From the NCBI RefSeq assembly GCF_016406085.1, contig NZ_JAEHFJ010000001.1, forward strand, positions 1 to 64,000: a stretch of DNA of 64,000 nucleotides, read 5' to 3'. Shown here piece by piece: positions 3,827-15,918 of the stretch. The first letter of the stretch is position 1. The number at the start of each line of letters is the position of its first letter. This DNA is from Aureibaculum flavum. GTDB taxonomy: Bacteria > Bacteroidota > Bacteroidia > Flavobacteriales > Flavobacteriaceae. The position numbers and the translations under genes were made by a program. The notes below the pieces were generated by a model. It was not told where the DNA came from and did not search any database. It saw only the letters and a list, made by a program, of their open reading frames with translations.

Positions 3827-5320
3827 ATGTTTAACAAAGAAGTAATACTGCCTTTTCTGAAATCAATTGAAACTTTCGAAAATCATAACGCTTTTTGTAT
3901 TAATGAACACTTTTATACATATAAAGAACTTAGTAATTCTGTTACCAAAGTTCGTTTCGCACTTCAAAAAGAGAAAATTATAAATAAAAATATTGGACTT
4001 GTAGCAAATGATGATATTGAAACTTACGCATCAATTTTTGCGATTTGGTTAGAAGGCTGTGCATACGTGACTTTACATCCAAAACAACCAATGGATAGAA
4101 TTATGGAAATAATTGACCAAGCTGAAATCTCCTTAATTTTAAATTCAAGTACAGATTTGTTATTTCCTTCGATTAAAACCATTGAAAGTAAAAACCTAAA
4201 ATCAGGCATAATTGACAATCTACCAAAGTTAACTGATGAAAATTCCCTTGCCTACATACTTTTCACTTCAGGAAGTACAGGAAAGCCAAAAGGAGTGCAA
4301 ATTAGTCGAAAAAATATCGGAGCTTTCATGAATTCCTTTTGGAAAACAGAAATTCACATTAATGAAAATGATCGATGCTTACAGTGTTTTGATTTAACTT
4401 TCGATGTTTCCGTTCAATCTTATTTGGTTCCACTTACAAAAGGAGCATGCATATACACAATTCCACATGACCAGATAAAATATAGTTATGTATTTGGATT
4501 ATTAGAAGATTACAAACTGACTTTTGCGACCATGGCTCCATCAATTATAAGATATTTACAGCCATATTTTGACGAGATTAATGCTCCAAATCTTCGATAC
4601 AACATACTTACTGCTGAAGCATCTTCTCTTGATTTGGTAGAAGAATGGGCAACTTGTATTCCAAATGCAGAAATATTAGATTTTTATGGACCAACAGAGG
4701 CAACTATATATTGTACATATAATAAATTCAATCGTTTCGGTGTTAATAAACAATTAAATGGAATGATGTCAATTGGAAAAGCAATGCATGGGGTAAAAGC
4801 AATTATTATTGATGAGAAGGGTAAAACGCTTGGTGCAAATAAAAAAGGGGAATTATGTGTAAGTGGTGATCAGTTAACGCCTGGATATTGGAAGAATCAT
4901 GAAAAAAATAGCTCATCTTTTTTTACCGTTGAAATTGATGGTAGTAATACTAGGTTTTATAAAACTGGAGATTTATGTTATATTGATAATGAAGGAGATA
5001 TTTTACTTTCAGGTCGCTTAGATTATCAAGTAAAGATTCAAGGATATCGTATAGAATTAGGAGAAATAGAGTTTCATGCACGTTATTTTTTAAAAAAAAT
5101 TAATGTTGTGGTATTACCTTTTATAAACAAAACTAAAAATACGGAATTGGCTTTATTTATAGAAAATGAAGTTCAAAATACAGATTTGTTAATAGATTAT
5201 TTAAAATCAAAGTTACCTTCTTATATGATACCTACAAAAACAATAGGTGTTTCAGAATTTCCAATTAATACTAATGGAAAAATTGATAAGAATTTGTTGA
5301 AACTAAAAATAGGAAAATAA
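3827..5320 (+). CDS. Amino-acid adenylating enzyme, DltA/NRPS A-domain-like
   Basis: Stand-alone adenylation domain (497 residues, the size of DltA). It should activate a carboxylic acid with ATP and load it on the acyl carrier protein encoded at 5992. Core motifs are in order: FTSGSTGKPKG (146-156), FDVSV with Asp193 at the position that holds the alpha-amino group in amino-acid-specific A domains, FYGPTEAT, YKTGDLC (378-384), GRLDYQVKIQGYRIELGEIE (396-415) and NGKIDK with the catalytic Lys485. An amino acid is therefore a more likely substrate than a fatty acid. Which amino acid (D-Ala as in DltA, or another) cannot be read with certainty. First gene of a five-gene operon, 3 nt before the next gene. 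Confidence 0.9.
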   Translation: MFNKEVILPFLKSIETFENHNAFCINEHFYTYKELSNSVTKVRFALQKEKIINKNIGLVANDDIETYASIFAIWLEGCAYVTLHPKQPMDRIMEIIDQAEISLILNSSTDLLFPSIKTIESKNLKSGIIDNLPKLTDENSLAYILFTSGSTGKPKGVQISRKNIGAFMNSFWKTEIHINENDRCLQCFDLTFDVSVQSYLVPLTKGACIYTIPHDQIKYSYVFGLLEDYKLTFATMAPSIIRYLQPYFDEINAPNLRYNILTAEASSLDLVEEWATCIPNAEILDFYGPTEATIYCTYNKFNRFGVNKQLNGMMSIGKAMHGVKAIIIDEKGKTLGANKKGELCVSGDQLTPGYWKNHEKNSSSFFTVEIDGSNTRFYKTGDLCYIDNEGDILLSGRLDYQVKIQGYRIELGEIEFHARYFLKKINVVVLPFINKTKNTELALFIENEVQNTDLLIDYLKSKLPSYMIPTKTIGVSEFPINTNGKIDKNLLKLKIGK

Positions 5321-5323
5321 AGT

Positions 5324-5983
5324 ATGAAAGATTTATTTTTAAGAAAAGCAACAATTCATGATATTCCATTTTTGATAGAAACAATTATAGAAGCTGAAAA
5401 AGCCGGAACGGACACTTTATCTTATGCAACAATTTTTGAATTGAAAGAAGCAGAAATAAAAACTTATTTGGAAGCAATACTTAAGGAAGAAATTGATGGT
5501 TGTGAGCTTTCAATTTCAAGTTTTTTAGTTGCTGAGAAAAATAAGAATTTAATTGCAGCCTCCTGTGCTTGGGTAGAAGGCACTGAAGGTGTCCCTTCAA
5601 GAATTTTAAAAGGGAATCTACTAAATTATTTCATACCAAAGAAAAACATTGAAAAGGCAAAGGTTTTGAGTAAAATGTTAAATGAATTACAATTTGAGTC
5701 TATGCCAAATAGTATTCATTTTGGTGTTGGATATGTTACAAAAAAAAATAGAGGAAATAATTTATTGGGAATTCTTAAAAAAGAACAAATAGTTATATTA
5801 TCAAAAATCAATAAAAATATTAATGAAGCCTATGTGGATATTTTTGAGAATAATATCCCCGCAATTAAAATCAATAAAAAATTAGATTTTAAAATTATTT
5901 CAAGAAAAGATACCTCGAATAAAGATATTTTTAATTATCTACCCTCGAATAAGAAAATTTTAATGAAAAAAGAATTAAAATAA
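5324..5983 (+). CDS. GNAT-family N-acyltransferase in the dlt-like operon
   Basis: 219 residues. The FLRKATIHDIPFL start and the segment HFGVGYVTKKNRGNNLLG (132-149), an RGxxLG-type motif A for acetyl-CoA, identify a GNAT fold. VDIFENNIPAIKINKKLDF fits the usual C-terminal N-A-x-x-x-Y/F-x-K-x-G-F-like segment. It sits between the adenylating enzyme and the carrier protein with gaps of only 3 and 8 nt, so they were probably co-selected. The classical dlt operon has no GNAT. Inference: it may acylate the amino group of the carrier-bound amino acid, or modify the sugar acceptor. The substrate is unknown. Confidence 0.75.
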   Translation: MKDLFLRKATIHDIPFLIETIIEAEKAGTDTLSYATIFELKEAEIKTYLEAILKEEIDGCELSISSFLVAEKNKNLIAASCAWVEGTEGVPSRILKGNLLNYFIPKKNIEKAKVLSKMLNELQFESMPNSIHFGVGYVTKKNRGNNLLGILKKEQIVILSKINKNINEAYVDIFENNIPAIKINKKLDFKIISRKDTSNKDIFNYLPSNKKILMKKELK

Positions 5984-5991
5984 AAAACATT

Positions 5992-6234
5992 ATGGAAAAA
6001 TCACAAATAAAAGATGAATTAGACAATATTTTTAAAAAAATATTTAACAATGAAACGTTAGAAATTTCAGAAAATATGTCTGCAAATGATGTAGATAATT
6101 GGGACTCCTTATCGCACATGCTATTAATAACTGAAATTGAGGACCATTTTTCAATTAAATTTAAGCTTCGTGAACTTAATAAAATGAAAAATGTAGGTGT
6201 TTTAATAGACATCTTAAGTTCGAAGCTAAATTAA
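5992..6234 (+). CDS. Acyl carrier protein, DltC-like
   Basis: 80-residue carrier protein of ACP/PCP size. The phosphopantetheine site is in DNWDSLSHM, with Ser39 as the attachment residue, followed by the acidic helix II ITEIEDHF. It lies directly after the adenylating enzyme and GNAT and 12 nt before the MBOAT gene. This gives the DltA-DltC-DltB-DltD gene complement. It most likely carries the activated amino acid as a thioester in the cytoplasm and presents it to the membrane acyltransferase. Confidence 0.9.
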   Translation: MEKSQIKDELDNIFKKIFNNETLEISENMSANDVDNWDSLSHMLLITEIEDHFSIKFKLRELNKMKNVGVLIDILSSKLN

Positions 6235-6246
6235 CCATTATTTACT

Positions 6247-7686
6247 ATGGTTTTTACTTCTTTTAATTTTTTAATCTTTTTTCCAATTGTAATAGTCCTT
6301 TATTACTTAATTCCTAGTCGAATTAGGTGGTGTTTTCTTTTGTTAACAAGCATTTTTTTTTACGCAAATGTCCTTCCTTTATATGTAATATTGCTTTTAT
6401 TTGTTTCTCTAATAACCTACCTATTTGGCATAATTATAGAGAGAGAAAAAAGTGATAGTAAAAAAGAAAAGTTTCTTATTATTGGTATAATCTTAGTCTT
6501 TCTGCCATTGTTCATTTTCAAATATTATGATTTTTTAAATGAAATGATATTTAACTTTATGGACTATTTTTCGATACGTTTTCCATTACCAAAATTAAAT
6601 TTATTACTTCCTGTAGGTATTTCATTTTACACCTTTATGGCAATAGGTTATTTATTCGATATATATAATGAAGAAATTAAGGCTGAAAAGAATATCGGTC
6701 TAATTACTTTATTTTTATCCTTCTTCCCTCTAGTTCTTTCAGGCCCTATCGAAAGGGCTCCTAGCATGTTACCACAATTTAAAAGTGAGTTAACATTCAA
6801 TTATGAAAAAGCTGTTCAAGGTTTTAAATTTATTATTTGGGGATACTTTATGAAGTTAGTGGTTGCTGATCGAATTGGGATTTATACAGATGTGGTTCTA
6901 AGCAATATGGAGTATCATTCTGGCAAAACCTTACTATTTACCGTTTTAATTTATCCACTACAGTTGTATGCTGATTTAGGTGGGTATTCATTAATTGCTA
7001 TAGGTGTTGCTGGAGTTTTAGGTATAAAAGTACGACGAAATTTTAACCGACCTTTTTTTGCTACAACACTTTCAGAATTTTGGCGTAGATGGCACATGTC
7101 TCTAATTTCGTGGATTTTAGATTACGTTTACACCCCTTTGTCGTTTGCTTTTAGAAGATATAAAATGAAAGGTGTACTGTTAACCGTAATCTTAACATTA
7201 TTTATTATGGGCATGTGGCACGGTGCAACATTAACTTATTTAATGTGGGCTTTGTTTCAGGGGGTTGTGCTCAGTTTTGAGGCAATAACAAAAAATAAAA
7301 AATTCGCTTTTGAAAAAAAATATAATCTTTCTAAGAAATGGTGGTACATTGCATTTGGAATTTCTATAACATATATATTATTTGCATTTTCATTTTTAAC
7401 AGGAGGAAATAGACATACATTTTCAGAAGGAATCATGGCCTTTGAAAAAATAATAAACTTCTCAGGTTCTATCTTTATTGATAGTCCATCAAATTTAATT
7501 TTTATTATTTTAGGTGCTTTTATTTTATTATTAAAAGACTTTAAGGAAGAATTTTTTTCTTCACGATTATTATTTTTTAATAATAAACTGAAAATTATTC
7601 GAATTTTATCTTATAGTTTTATTATTATATTAATCCTTTTAATAGGGGTTTTTGATGCAGGACAATTCATTTATTTTAAATTTTAA
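6247..7686 (+). CDS. MBOAT-family membrane O-acyltransferase (DltB/AlgI-like)
   Basis: 479 residues with about ten or more hydrophobic segments. Signatures of the DltB/AlgI/PatA branch are present: LPVGISFYTFMAIGYLFDIY (121-140), SEFWRRWHMSLISWILDYVY (276-295) with His283, and the invariant catalytic His325 in MGMWHGATLTYLMWALFQG. These proteins pass an acyl group across the inner membrane to an extracytoplasmic acceptor or partner protein. The adjacent carrier protein suggests the donor is acyl-S-ACP. The 3' end overlaps the SGNH gene, typical of translational coupling. Confidence 0.93.
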   Translation: MVFTSFNFLIFFPIVIVLYYLIPSRIRWCFLLLTSIFFYANVLPLYVILLLFVSLITYLFGIIIEREKSDSKKEKFLIIGIILVFLPLFIFKYYDFLNEMIFNFMDYFSIRFPLPKLNLLLPVGISFYTFMAIGYLFDIYNEEIKAEKNIGLITLFLSFFPLVLSGPIERAPSMLPQFKSELTFNYEKAVQGFKFIIWGYFMKLVVADRIGIYTDVVLSNMEYHSGKTLLFTVLIYPLQLYADLGGYSLIAIGVAGVLGIKVRRNFNRPFFATTLSEFWRRWHMSLISWILDYVYTPLSFAFRRYKMKGVLLTVILTLFIMGMWHGATLTYLMWALFQGVVLSFEAITKNKKFAFEKKYNLSKKWWYIAFGISITYILFAFSFLTGGNRHTFSEGIMAFEKIINFSGSIFIDSPSNLIFIILGAFILLLKDFKEEFFSSRLLFFNNKLKIIRILSYSFIIILILLIGVFDAGQFIYFKF

Positions 7687-8593
7687 TATCATTAAAAAAA
7701 TAGTTTTAAACATATCTTTAGTATTTATAGTAGTTGGTATATTTGATTTTTTAATTGGAAATACATTACGTTTTTTCTATTTTAAAGAATCCTCTGGCCT
7801 TCATTATAGAACAACCTATGCCATAGATTCAACTCAAGCTGATGTACTAATTTTTGGTGCTTCTACCGCTAACCATCATTATGTTCCCCAGGTATTTGAA
7901 AACTCTTTAAACATGACTTATTACAACACAGGCAGGGATGGTCAAGGTATTTTATACCAATTAGCAGTTTTAAAATCTATTCTTAAAAGATATAAGCCAT
8001 CTGTCATTATCTTAGATCATACTGCGAGATTTAATAATAGCGAAAAAGATTTTGAGCGATTATCTGCACTTTTACCATATTATAAAGATCATAAAGAAAT
8101 TCGAGCGATTATTGAAAAAAAAAGTTCTTTTGAACAAATAAAATTATTATCAAACATTTACCCATATAATTCAAATATGCTAACCATTGCGTTAGGTAAT
8201 TTAGAATTTAATAAAAAAAGAAAACCTGATATTAAAGGGTATGTAGAATTAAATGGTATTTGGGAAGGGGCATTAGATTCTATAAATAATAAAGGAGATA
8301 TTAATAATGATATAATAAAAATACGTGCATTGGAAGAATTTATAGAATTGTCAAAGAATTCAGGAGCGAATCTTTTCATCATAAAGTCACCTGTTTTTAA
8401 AATTTCACCGAATAACATTGATAGTTTATTAACTACAATAAGTTTAAAACATAAAATTCCATTCTATAATTTCAAACAAGATTCAATTTTTCTGAATAAT
8501 CCATTTTTATTTAAAGATTTAGTTCACCTGAACAAAGAAGGAGCAACCGTTATTTCAAATATTATATGTGATAGTATTAAGCAGCATTTATAA
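7655..8593 (+). CDS. Membrane-anchored SGNH-hydrolase-like protein, DltD/AlgX-like
   Basis: 312 residues from the ATG at 7655. A TTG one codon upstream is possible but the ATG is preferred. One N-terminal membrane segment (about residues 15-37) is followed by an extracytoplasmic domain. FGASTANHHY carries a candidate nucleophile Ser70, and DLVHLNKEG near the C terminus supplies the Asp288/His291 pair of SGNH enzymes. This matches the partner role of DltD or AlgX/AlgJ, which complete acyl transfer to the glycan outside the membrane. It overlaps the MBOAT gene by 32 nt. Family assignment rests on motifs and context; overall similarity to DltD itself is not obvious. Confidence 0.75.
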   Translation: MQDNSFILNFNIIKKIVLNISLVFIVVGIFDFLIGNTLRFFYFKESSGLHYRTTYAIDSTQADVLIFGASTANHHYVPQVFENSLNMTYYNTGRDGQGILYQLAVLKSILKRYKPSVIILDHTARFNNSEKDFERLSALLPYYKDHKEIRAIIEKKSSFEQIKLLSNIYPYNSNMLTIALGNLEFNKKRKPDIKGYVELNGIWEGALDSINNKGDINNDIIKIRALEEFIELSKNSGANLFIIKSPVFKISPNNIDSLLTTISLKHKIPFYNFKQDSIFLNNPFLFKDLVHLNKEGATVISNIICDSIKQHL

Positions 8594-9121
8594 ACTATGA
8601 ACATAAATAATAATAATAATAATAATAAGTAACATTTTAGTAAAAAGTATAGAACCTATAATACCTACGATTTTAATCAAAACTCATTTGATTTTTTTTT
8701 AAAGTAGGCCTCTAAATAGTTCATAATACTTTATATAATTATATTCTTGCCTATGTGTTATAAGAAAAGAATTAATACCATCCTCAAAATTATTAAATAA
8801 TATATATCATTATTTCACATTGTTAACGCTATTTTAAATTTATTTAAAGTAAACTTATAATTCAAAAGATATTATAAAAGTGTATATACAGTAAAATAAT
8901 GATAGTTTGATTTTATAACTTCACATTCTTAATGCAAGGTTTTTTTTTATTAATCACCTTAATCATATATAGATTTATTAACTTAAAATATATTATTTTG
9001 ATACTATTTATTGAATTTTAATTTAGCTTTCAAACACTTTTTCTTAAAAGAAATATAACCCAATAAAAAACCATCTTAAAATAAGATGGTTTTTAATTAT
9101 TGCTATTTTATATTAATACAA
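8594..9121. other. AT-rich intergenic region with triplet repeat
   Basis: About 530 nt between the convergent dlt-like operon and the polysaccharide locus. It holds (AAT)7 at 8606-8626 just after the operon and a clear hairpin at 9066-9094. No coding frame of substance was seen. Confidence 0.6.
9066..9094. terminator. Terminator hairpin at the end of the polysaccharide locus
   Basis: Stem AAAAACCATCTTA (9066-9078) / TAAGATGGTTTTT (9082-9094) with a 3-nt loop and flanking A/T tracts. It lies just downstream of the minus-strand sugar-transferase stop at 9122 and could also stop plus-strand transcripts. Confidence 0.85.
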
Positions 9122-14910: not shown

Positions 14911-15918
14911 TTATCTAATTTTACTTAAAATACTTAAACCAAGTTTAGCTATCTTAAATTTAAGAGGACTTAAAACTTTTTGATATCTACCATGTTCTAC
15001 CAATTCTCCACCATACTGTGCTTTAAAATTACGAACACCATAATCTTCTCCTTTTATACCAGCTCCCATAAAATCAAATGTGGATAGTTGTTTGTCTAAA
15101 CCAAATTTTATAACTGCCCAAGCTGCCAAAGTACTAGGATATTGATGTTTGAAATCTCGATCTAAACCACCTCTATACCAATCATAAACACATTTATTAT
15201 CAAATACCAAAAATCCACCTCCTATAACTTTTCCTTGATATATTAGAGCAAATATATTTCCTAATTTTTGCTTCGCTAAATCATTAAAAAATTCAAGCTT
15301 AGGTAATGGTTTTTTTACTTTTTCTAAATAGATCCCTTTTATAATATTATAAACACCTTTAATGTTAAAATCGGTATTTTCATAGGAAATTTCCACACCT
15401 TCTTTAATACTTCTTCTAATTTGTCTTCTTTTTTCGGAAGTTAAGTTATTAAAAACCTCTTCTTCATTTGTTAGTGAAATTTTAAAATTTTGATAAGGAA
15501 GATATTCATAATTATTTTCTTTAAAAATTTTATCAAACTCCTTATATAAAAAAGCATGACGAAACTCACTATAAATAGCCTTAGATTTTAAGAGTTTATT
15601 CATGTTCTTAATCAAGCTAGTAAGAACTTCATCTTTTTCACAAGTATCAGATATAACTGCACCTCCATAAATAATTGCTCGTTTAGAGAAATTCTTTTTG
15701 AGTCCGGTACCATTGTATTGCACAACAACCTGACAAACAGCTAATAAATTATTATTTTCTTCAATACCAAAAACAAACGGATCGCACTCGTCTTGTTTTT
15801 CCCAAAATTCATACATTTCTGAATGTTGAAATACCGACCCATATTGTGATTTTTTAATTAAATCATCCCATGCGTTCTTATCAATATCTTCAAATTTTGA
15901 AACAAATTTATAATCCAA
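14911..15918 (-). CDS. FemAB/GNAT-like aminoacyl or acyl transferase
   Basis: 335 residues of the FemAB-related Acetyltransf_6 type. It has KRRQIRRSIKEGVEISYEN mid-protein, IYQGKVIGGGFLVF, and the C-terminal VYDWYRGGLDR / STLAAWAVIKFGLDK signature. Enzymes of this type transfer an aminoacyl or acyl group to a sugar or peptide amino group. Homologous proteins recur in exopolysaccharide clusters, including exosortase-linked ones, next to amidotransferase and deacetylase genes, and the same neighbours are seen here. The acceptor is unknown. Confidence 0.8.
   Translation of the reverse strand: MDYKFVSKFEDIDKNAWDDLIKKSQYGSVFQHSEMYEFWEKQDECDPFVFGIEENNNLLAVCQVVVQYNGTGLKKNFSKRAIIYGGAVISDTCEKDEVLTSLIKNMNKLLKSKAIYSEFRHAFLYKEFDKIFKENNYEYLPYQNFKISLTNEEEVFNNLTSEKRRQIRRSIKEGVEISYENTDFNIKGVYNIIKGIYLEKVKKPLPKLEFFNDLAKQKLGNIFALIYQGKVIGGGFLVFDNKCVYDWYRGGLDRDFKHQYPSTLAAWAVIKFGLDKQLSTFDFMGAGIKGEDYGVRNFKAQYGGELVEHGRYQKVLSPLKFKIAKLGLSILSKIR

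Follow-up and report, generated by a model that had tools for sequence, protein, structure and literature searches.

A probable carrier-fed MBOAT/SGNH operon with an added GNAT acyltransferase in Aureibaculum flavum, apparently a new variant of the pathway that alanylates teichoic acids

What would an operon that resembles the D-alanylation pathway of Gram-positive teichoic acids place on the surface of a Gram-negative bacterium, and what is a GNAT-fold acyltransferase doing between its activating enzyme and its carrier protein? The question is raised by five plus-strand open reading frames (ORFs) at 3827-8593 of a 64,000-nt stretch of Aureibaculum flavum DNA (GCF_016406085.1, contig NZ_JAEHFJ010000001.1, positions 1-64,000 of the forward strand; the window), which encode, in order, a stand-alone amino-acid adenylation enzyme (A domain), the GNAT, an acyl carrier protein (ACP), an MBOAT and an SGNH-fold protein. 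An earlier reading made from the sequence alone had called these genes tightly packed, and the ORF coordinates bear this out, with gaps of 3, 8 and 12 bp followed by one overlap of 35 bp. Overall, we believe that the operon is best described as a hybrid in which a thioester front end of the Dlt kind is joined to an MBOAT/SGNH back end of the PatA kind, with an N-acyltransferase added, and that it looks like a variant of the teichoic-acid alanylation pathway that is new. An acylation route in which an aminoacyl thioester feeds the MBOAT/SGNH pair is very probable; that the amino acid is N-acylated while on the carrier is the reading we favor, with less assurance, and with similar assurance we favor an operon that makes and exports an N-acylated aminoacyl group and places it as an ester on a surface glycan.

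In the predicted front end, the A domain scores 194.9 bits with Pfam AMP-binding (cut-off 29.9) and 302.7 bits with NCBIfam AA-adenyl-dom, just below its cut-off of 317.4, and it reaches 262 bits with the DltA model TIGR01734 against a cut-off of 559.85. The carrier scores 21.6 bits with PP-binding (cut-off 20.8) and 17.2 bits with the DltC model NF003464 (cut-off 68), and its phosphopantetheine site, Ser39, is present in all 27 aligned carriers. A search of the genome with the DltA profile returned the window gene at 261.6 bits and placed none of its nine matches above the cut-off, so that no second Dlt-like set stands above that threshold elsewhere in the genome; because the same model matches in 12 of 14 control genomes and exceeds its cut-off in two, a bare match means little. 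One locus considered as such a second set (L085) was rejected, since by eye it seems to pair an acyl-CoA ligase with a hydrolase and a transporter. By the curated models, then, the operon falls outside the Dlt families, though its mode of action is most likely that of Dlt.

Aligning 27 A domains gave the substrate pocket, for which the window code is D193 V194 Q197 T235 I260 T262 F286 I294 Y295 K485 (DVQTITFIYK). Both the Asp that binds the amino group and the Lys corresponding to K485 are kept in 27 of 27 sequences, and because that Asp is universal the substrate is predicted to be an amino acid rather than a fatty acid; a fatty-acid-preferring A domain, which the sequence-only reading had singled out as fatal to its own proposal, is thereby made unlikely. 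Fourteen of the 27, the window among them, share the code DVQxIT(F/L/Y)IYK, and five share a second, DLMLLCVIFK, with Leu and Cys at positions that correspond by motif and spacing to L198 and C269 of DltA and to L248 and C316 of AlmE, residues named in the available text of PMC11253843. The window enzyme has V194 and T262 where DltA has L198 and C269, an equivalence drawn from the alignment and from spacing; D247 and C316 of AlmE are separated by 69 residues, as are D193 and T262 here. Given the two code groups, two or more substrates are probably in use among the operons, and the window pocket differs from that of DltA. The DVQ start resembles proline codes and the bulky F286 and Y295 resemble glycine-type pockets, and we name no substrate from either.

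The back end departs from Dlt. The MBOAT (67.3 bits with Pfam MBOAT, cut-off 27) scores 168.4 bits with the DltB model TIGR04091, for which the cut-off is 375. Its His325 is found in all 22 proteins that reach this part of the alignment (24 were aligned, two being cut by contig ends), and an acyl-shuttle motif, FxYxx(F/Y), closes all 22 MBOATs with an intact C-terminus, as FIYFKF in the window. The sequence-only reading had taken this protein for a plain DltB-type MBOAT, a view that did not survive: Dlt carries the hexapeptide on DltX, and the back end resembles PatA/PatB instead. Nor was a DltX-like microprotein found, the pattern F.Y..(F/Y) occurring in none of the 60 ORFs of 20-149 aa on both strands between 2900 and 9130. 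The SGNH protein has no Pfam match; its structure model, compared by re-aligning Foldseek matches, shows a single N-terminal helix (residues 11-45) and the fold of SGNH proteins, with DltD and PatB among those to which it aligns, and its Ser and His are conserved across relatives. An MBOAT with a catalytic His and a C-terminal FxYxxF is thus paired with an SGNH protein bearing Ser, Asp and His, as in PatA/PatB-type systems; the relay of the acyl group from MBOAT to Tyr to SGNH protein, and the motif itself, are described in the part of PMC12148441 open to us. The residues singled out earlier, Asp193, Ser39 and His325, all fall on conserved positions, and amino-acid activation, carrier loading and MBOAT/SGNH export are supported.

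Whether the GNAT belongs to this system depends on the company it keeps. The genome holds one match to the 219-aa GNAT, namely the window copy. Strong relatives occur in two of 397 genomes of the family, the window genome and G409 (whose contig is also locus L039), the six further matches being weak (E > 1e-4), and in three of 395 genomes of the phylum, the window genome included. Of the weak matches in relatives (28-37% identity over part of the length), the two examined, L002 and L003, were discarded as single GNATs with other neighbors that share the fold only. A scan of GTDB at one genome per species with two short patterns, which gives a lower bound, yielded 187 pattern matches; a relative is encoded by 21 of these, all in Bacteroidetes-type, Ignavibacteria or Chlorobiaceae records, while 200 pattern matches in a viral collection included no relative of the GNAT. 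The operon is rare, yet recurrent across Bacteroidota.

The window and these 21 loci form our synteny set, and since all 21 were chosen through the GNAT, the set shows the company of the GNAT and not how often its slot is filled. Within it the order A-GNAT-ACP recurs in 19 of 22 loci, with exceptions in form at L026 (one gene inserted), L040 (a 389-bp gap) and L046 (the order spanning a second GNAT copy). All five genes stand in the order A-GNAT-ACP-MBOAT-SGNH in half of the loci (11/22: the window, the second operon of L026, L027, L029, L030, L032, L033, L034, L037, L039 and L043, the last with its A domain cut by the contig start), although the SGNH protein is weakly matched in L034 (E 4e-4), L037 (0.016) and L043 (0.11). 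In L028 and L031 the contig ends inside the MBOAT, in L044 an AlgX-like protein (a sub-threshold match) takes the SGNH place, and L036 and L038 read A-carrier-GNAT-A-GNAT-ACP with MBOATs further along. The gap from A domain to GNAT is at most 26 bp in 19 of 22 pairs, and the distances of the two proteins correlate (r 0.81 over 22 pairs, 0/9999 permutations; r 0.63 in the main group, n = 15, 38/9999). The view that the GNAT is part of the system gains from the recurrence of A-GNAT-ACP, within the limits of a set found through the GNAT.

A further sign comes from L026 (2790-13799), where two complete operons lie in tandem and a 4HBT-type thioesterase gene directly precedes the carrier in each. 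In the second, the thioesterase gene lies between GNAT and ACP. The first reads A-X-4HBT-ACP-MBOAT-SGNH, where X is a 253-aa protein missed by the GNAT family profile whose best Pfam matches are nonetheless all GNAT models below cut-off, led by Acetyltransf_10 (22.2 bits against 23.6, E 1.4e-4). X is probably a non-orthologous GNAT in the same slot, and we regard no other single sign as stronger than this probable replacement in suggesting that an acyltransferase is required there. It also bears on the suggestion that otherwise conserved operons without the GNAT would count against the proposal: among the loci examined, the sole A-ACP-MBOAT-SGNH operon lacking the orthologous GNAT is this one, with a different, probable GNAT in its place, a weak test given that nearly all of the loci were GNAT-found.

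The GNAT itself has no Pfam match above cut-off and receives no name from curated models; its only Pfam match, a sub-threshold allergen model, was set aside as chance. Its structure model is nonetheless a confident GNAT fold (predicted local distance difference test score 95.9), and model and family profile together place it in the GNAT superfamily by fold. Acetyltransf_1 matches 27 of the 29 family members (E <= 0.01), the window protein being one of the two it misses.

With these pieces, the proposed pathway can be laid out. The A domain would activate one amino acid as an adenylate and load it onto the phosphopantetheine arm of the carrier. Because a free amino group on the incoming amino acid is implied by Asp193, the GNAT would most simply N-acylate it there, on the carrier, most simply from an acyl-CoA. 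The MBOAT would then move the acyl group from the carrier across the membrane to the Tyr of its own FIYFKF motif, from which the SGNH Ser would take it to form an ester with a hydroxyl on a surface glycan, probably the one made by the neighboring Wzx/Wzy-type locus. Groups of this kind are known from O-polysaccharides, where N-acetyl-D- and L-alanyl, N-acetylglycyl and N-(3-hydroxybutyryl)-alanyl groups occur as amides on Qui3N and Qui4N (PMC3210612, in the text available). A/GNAT/ACP loci without an MBOAT may feed such amides in the cytoplasm, and the five-gene operons would send an N-acyl-aminoacyl group of the same kind through MBOAT and SGNH protein to a hydroxyl. Loading, export and transfer are proposed on the strength of conserved catalytic residues, folds and the published DltABCD/DltX and PatAB mechanisms; the GNAT step, and the identities of amino acid, acyl group and acceptor, we infer.

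Several observations weigh against this pathway. An acyl-CoA donor is not certain: in the pyrophosphate loop, (Q/R)xxGx(G/A), Arg143-Gly144 is kept in 22 of 29 family members and the Gly/Ala at 146 in 16 of 29, and the window loop, RGNN, lacks that second Gly/Ala. The acceptor of the GNAT is read from gene order alone. The co-variation of A domain and GNAT could be plain co-inheritance, shared descent of the whole operon explaining it equally well. Genome G274 has A-ACP without a recognized GNAT, the 383-aa ORF upstream having no Pfam match above cut-off. Finally, L035, L040 and L045 contain A domain, GNAT and ACP with no MBOAT in view, and in L041, L042 and L046 a GNAT lies on the strand opposite the ACP-MBOAT pair (L046 additionally holds A-GNAT-ACP at its contig start).

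Searches were also led by other genes of the operon. An A-domain-led search (E <= 1e-60) found six A domains in five of 395 phylum genomes, the window included, and four of the six are directly followed by the orthologous GNAT (the window, G778 and two in G695); in G011, A-ACP is followed by a generic GNAT (Acetyltransf_1, 47.7 bits) two genes downstream of the A domain, and the sixth A domain is that of G274. In the window's genus, a different locus that looks glycan-type by eye (L053:7564-11874) encodes A-ACP-GNAT-Antibiotic_NAT-DUF4910, possibly a cytoplasmic cousin of the charging module. Led by the MBOAT, a family search covered 249 genomes, 122 with a match at 1e-60, and among the neighbors of 29 MBOAT loci besides the window's no convincing carrier gene, judged by ORF length and a short pattern only, was seen within 1.5 kb. 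At 1e-90 in 395 genomes of the class, the orthologous GNAT lies within 1.5 kb of none of 13 non-window MBOATs and a carrier within 1.5 kb of two; at 42% identity or less to the window protein, these 13 represent a neighboring clade rather than the operon itself. The two MBOATs with a nearby carrier (L100:1366-3997 and L103:1492-4173) show no A domain or orthologous GNAT within 1.5 kb. In L103, ORFs that look reductase- and dehydratase-like by eye lie between MBOAT and carrier, which suggests carrier-fed MBOATs that use hydroxyacyl groups.

Among other roles for the GNAT, one is regulation: a Pat/AcuA-like protein lysine acetyltransferase would switch the A domain off at Lys485, and the free amino acid would be transferred as in Dlt. 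GNATs of the Pat/AcuA type regulate AMP-forming acyl-CoA synthetases, Lys485 is invariant, and the genes for GNAT and A domain lie in tight coupling and vary together. Yet GNAT number does not follow that of the A domain (L028 has one A domain, two GNATs and two carriers, and L045 one A domain and four GNATs), GNATs stand beside ACP-MBOAT with no A domain within the stretch examined in L041 and L042, the L026 slot is filled by a probable unrelated GNAT, and the window operon offers no sixth gene as a candidate deacetylase. We consider regulation unlikely.

We are equally doubtful that the GNAT is an aminoacyl transferase, moving the amino acid from the carrier to an amino sugar in the cytoplasm in parallel to the MBOAT route. 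The known N-acyl-aminoacyl amides on Qui3N and Qui4N speak for this role. In addition, A domain, GNAT and ACP in L035, where no MBOAT is in view, are followed by ORFs that look aminotransferase-like and hexapeptide-transferase-like by eye, and the CoA loop is partly degenerate. The window operon, however, has no amino-sugar gene of its own, and the GNAT is kept in five-gene operons whose only evident outlet is the MBOAT/SGNH pair.

A more elaborate scheme, for which we see only a slim chance, would have the stand-alone GNATs act as condensation enzymes that build short peptidyl chains on the carrier from aminoacyl or glyceryl thioesters, a non-ribosomal peptide synthetase in miniature without a C domain, its product exported by the shuttle-type MBOAT onto surface glycans. 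The loci that bring it to mind are L036 and L038, in which A domain, carrier and GNAT are each present twice, and L045 with FkbH and four GNATs. That locus (L045:4312-10642, also L024) is arranged A-GNAT-GNAT-FkbH-ACP-GNAT-GNAT around a single A domain and carrier. Separately, in L025:174-9360 the array A-GNAT-A-GNAT-ACP precedes a reductase-like gene, a further ligase and a pair of ORFs that resemble LuxE/LuxC by eye. Least probable of all is an ordinary Dlt-like aminoacyl ester system with the GNAT as a hitch-hiker on an unrelated job, for although curated models leave the window GNAT unnamed and its role putative, the gene order recurs across Bacteroidota and Ignavibacteria with start/stop coupling, and the same slot has a probable non-orthologous replacement.

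Returning to N-acylation on the carrier and ester transfer, there remains the acceptor. The adjoining minus-strand locus, with a sugar-phosphate transferase, glycosyltransferases, a MatE-type flippase, a Wzy-like polymerase and nucleotide-sugar genes, is by this content assigned to the Wzx/Wzy type, and the flanks of five of six other loci look by eye like glycan loci. At the same time, the sixth, L027, lies outside any obvious glycan locus, and in the window the glycan locus is convergent with the operon and separated from it by a strong hairpin (fold of 9055-9105, -15 kcal/mol, z -6.73, 0/200 shuffles as good), an arrangement that does not imply co-expression. The sequence-only reading proposed the glycan of this locus as acceptor; the locus is indeed there, but given its orientation and the hairpin, adjacency is no proof. 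The glycan locus also encodes a FemAB/GNAT-fold protein (14911-15918; FemAB 51.8 bits), possibly another aminoacyl or acyl transferase.

Table 1. Features of the acyl-transfer operon and its boundary in the window
Feature	Position	Strand	Residues, models or basis
Stand-alone amino-acid adenylation enzyme (A domain), 497 aa	3827..5320	+	Pfam AMP-binding
GNAT-fold acyltransferase, 219 aa	5324..5983	+	Candidate catalytic residues Glu85, Trp83, Lys96
Acyl/peptidyl carrier protein, 80 aa	5992..6234	+	Phosphopantetheine site Ser39; PP-binding
MBOAT, 479 aa	6247..7686	+	His325; C-terminal acyl-shuttle hexapeptide FIYFKF; Pfam MBOAT
SGNH-fold protein, 313 aa	7652..8593	+	N-terminal membrane-type helix; Ser71/Asp289/His292
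Terminator-like hairpin between operon and convergent glycan locus	9067..9093	.	Computed fold

If the favored reading is right, the operon provides an enzymatic route by which Gram-negative surface glycans receive N-acylated amino acids in ester linkage. A function open to testing could then be assigned to the GNAT family, and carrier-fed MBOATs would be expected to form a wider set in Bacteroidota. The group itself is less new than the route, since N-acetyl-alanyl and N-acetylglycyl amides are already known on bacterial glycans (PMC3210612, text available in part). Among the matches listed for the open-access literature, no title or abstract start names an A-GNAT-ACP-MBOAT-SGNH operon, which is weak evidence of novelty.

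How, then, does the operon stand among known systems? With DltABCD-DltX, which D-alanylates Gram-positive teichoic acids, it shares an adenylation enzyme that loads an amino acid onto a carrier, an MBOAT that takes the amino acid from that carrier and an SGNH-fold protein that makes the ester; it differs in the shuttle motif, fused to the MBOAT here and borne by a separate DltX there, in the added GNAT, and in DltA, DltB and DltC scores far below cut-off. With PatA/PatB of peptidoglycan O-acetylation and other MBOAT/SGNH pairs it shares the FxYxxF C-terminus, the catalytic His and the SGNH partner, but PatA draws on acetyl-CoA, whereas in this operon the MBOAT comes after an A domain and a carrier, and the carrier gene directly upstream argues against acyl-CoA as the MBOAT donor. 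According to the available text of PMC12148441, no comparable carrier protein exists in the MBOAT/SGNH pathways outside Dlt. The stand-alone A domain of AlmE, which serves lipid A glycylation in V. cholerae, is likewise used with a small amino acid for Gram-negative surface decoration (PMC11253843, in the part available). The AlmF/AlmG route ends with a different, non-MBOAT acyltransferase, and the AlmE system is not known to include a GNAT. In the synthesis of the antibiotics butirosin and vicenistatin, as we propose here, an amino acid on a carrier has its amino group capped ahead of its transfer; there the cap is another amino acid, added by ligases and later removed. In this context, the operon joins two halves that the available text of PMC12148441 treats as separate, the carrier donors of Dlt with its separate DltX and the built-in-shuttle MBOATs of PatA and its relatives, and it would add to this carrier-fed MBOAT/SGNH route a dedicated N-acyltransferase of its own.

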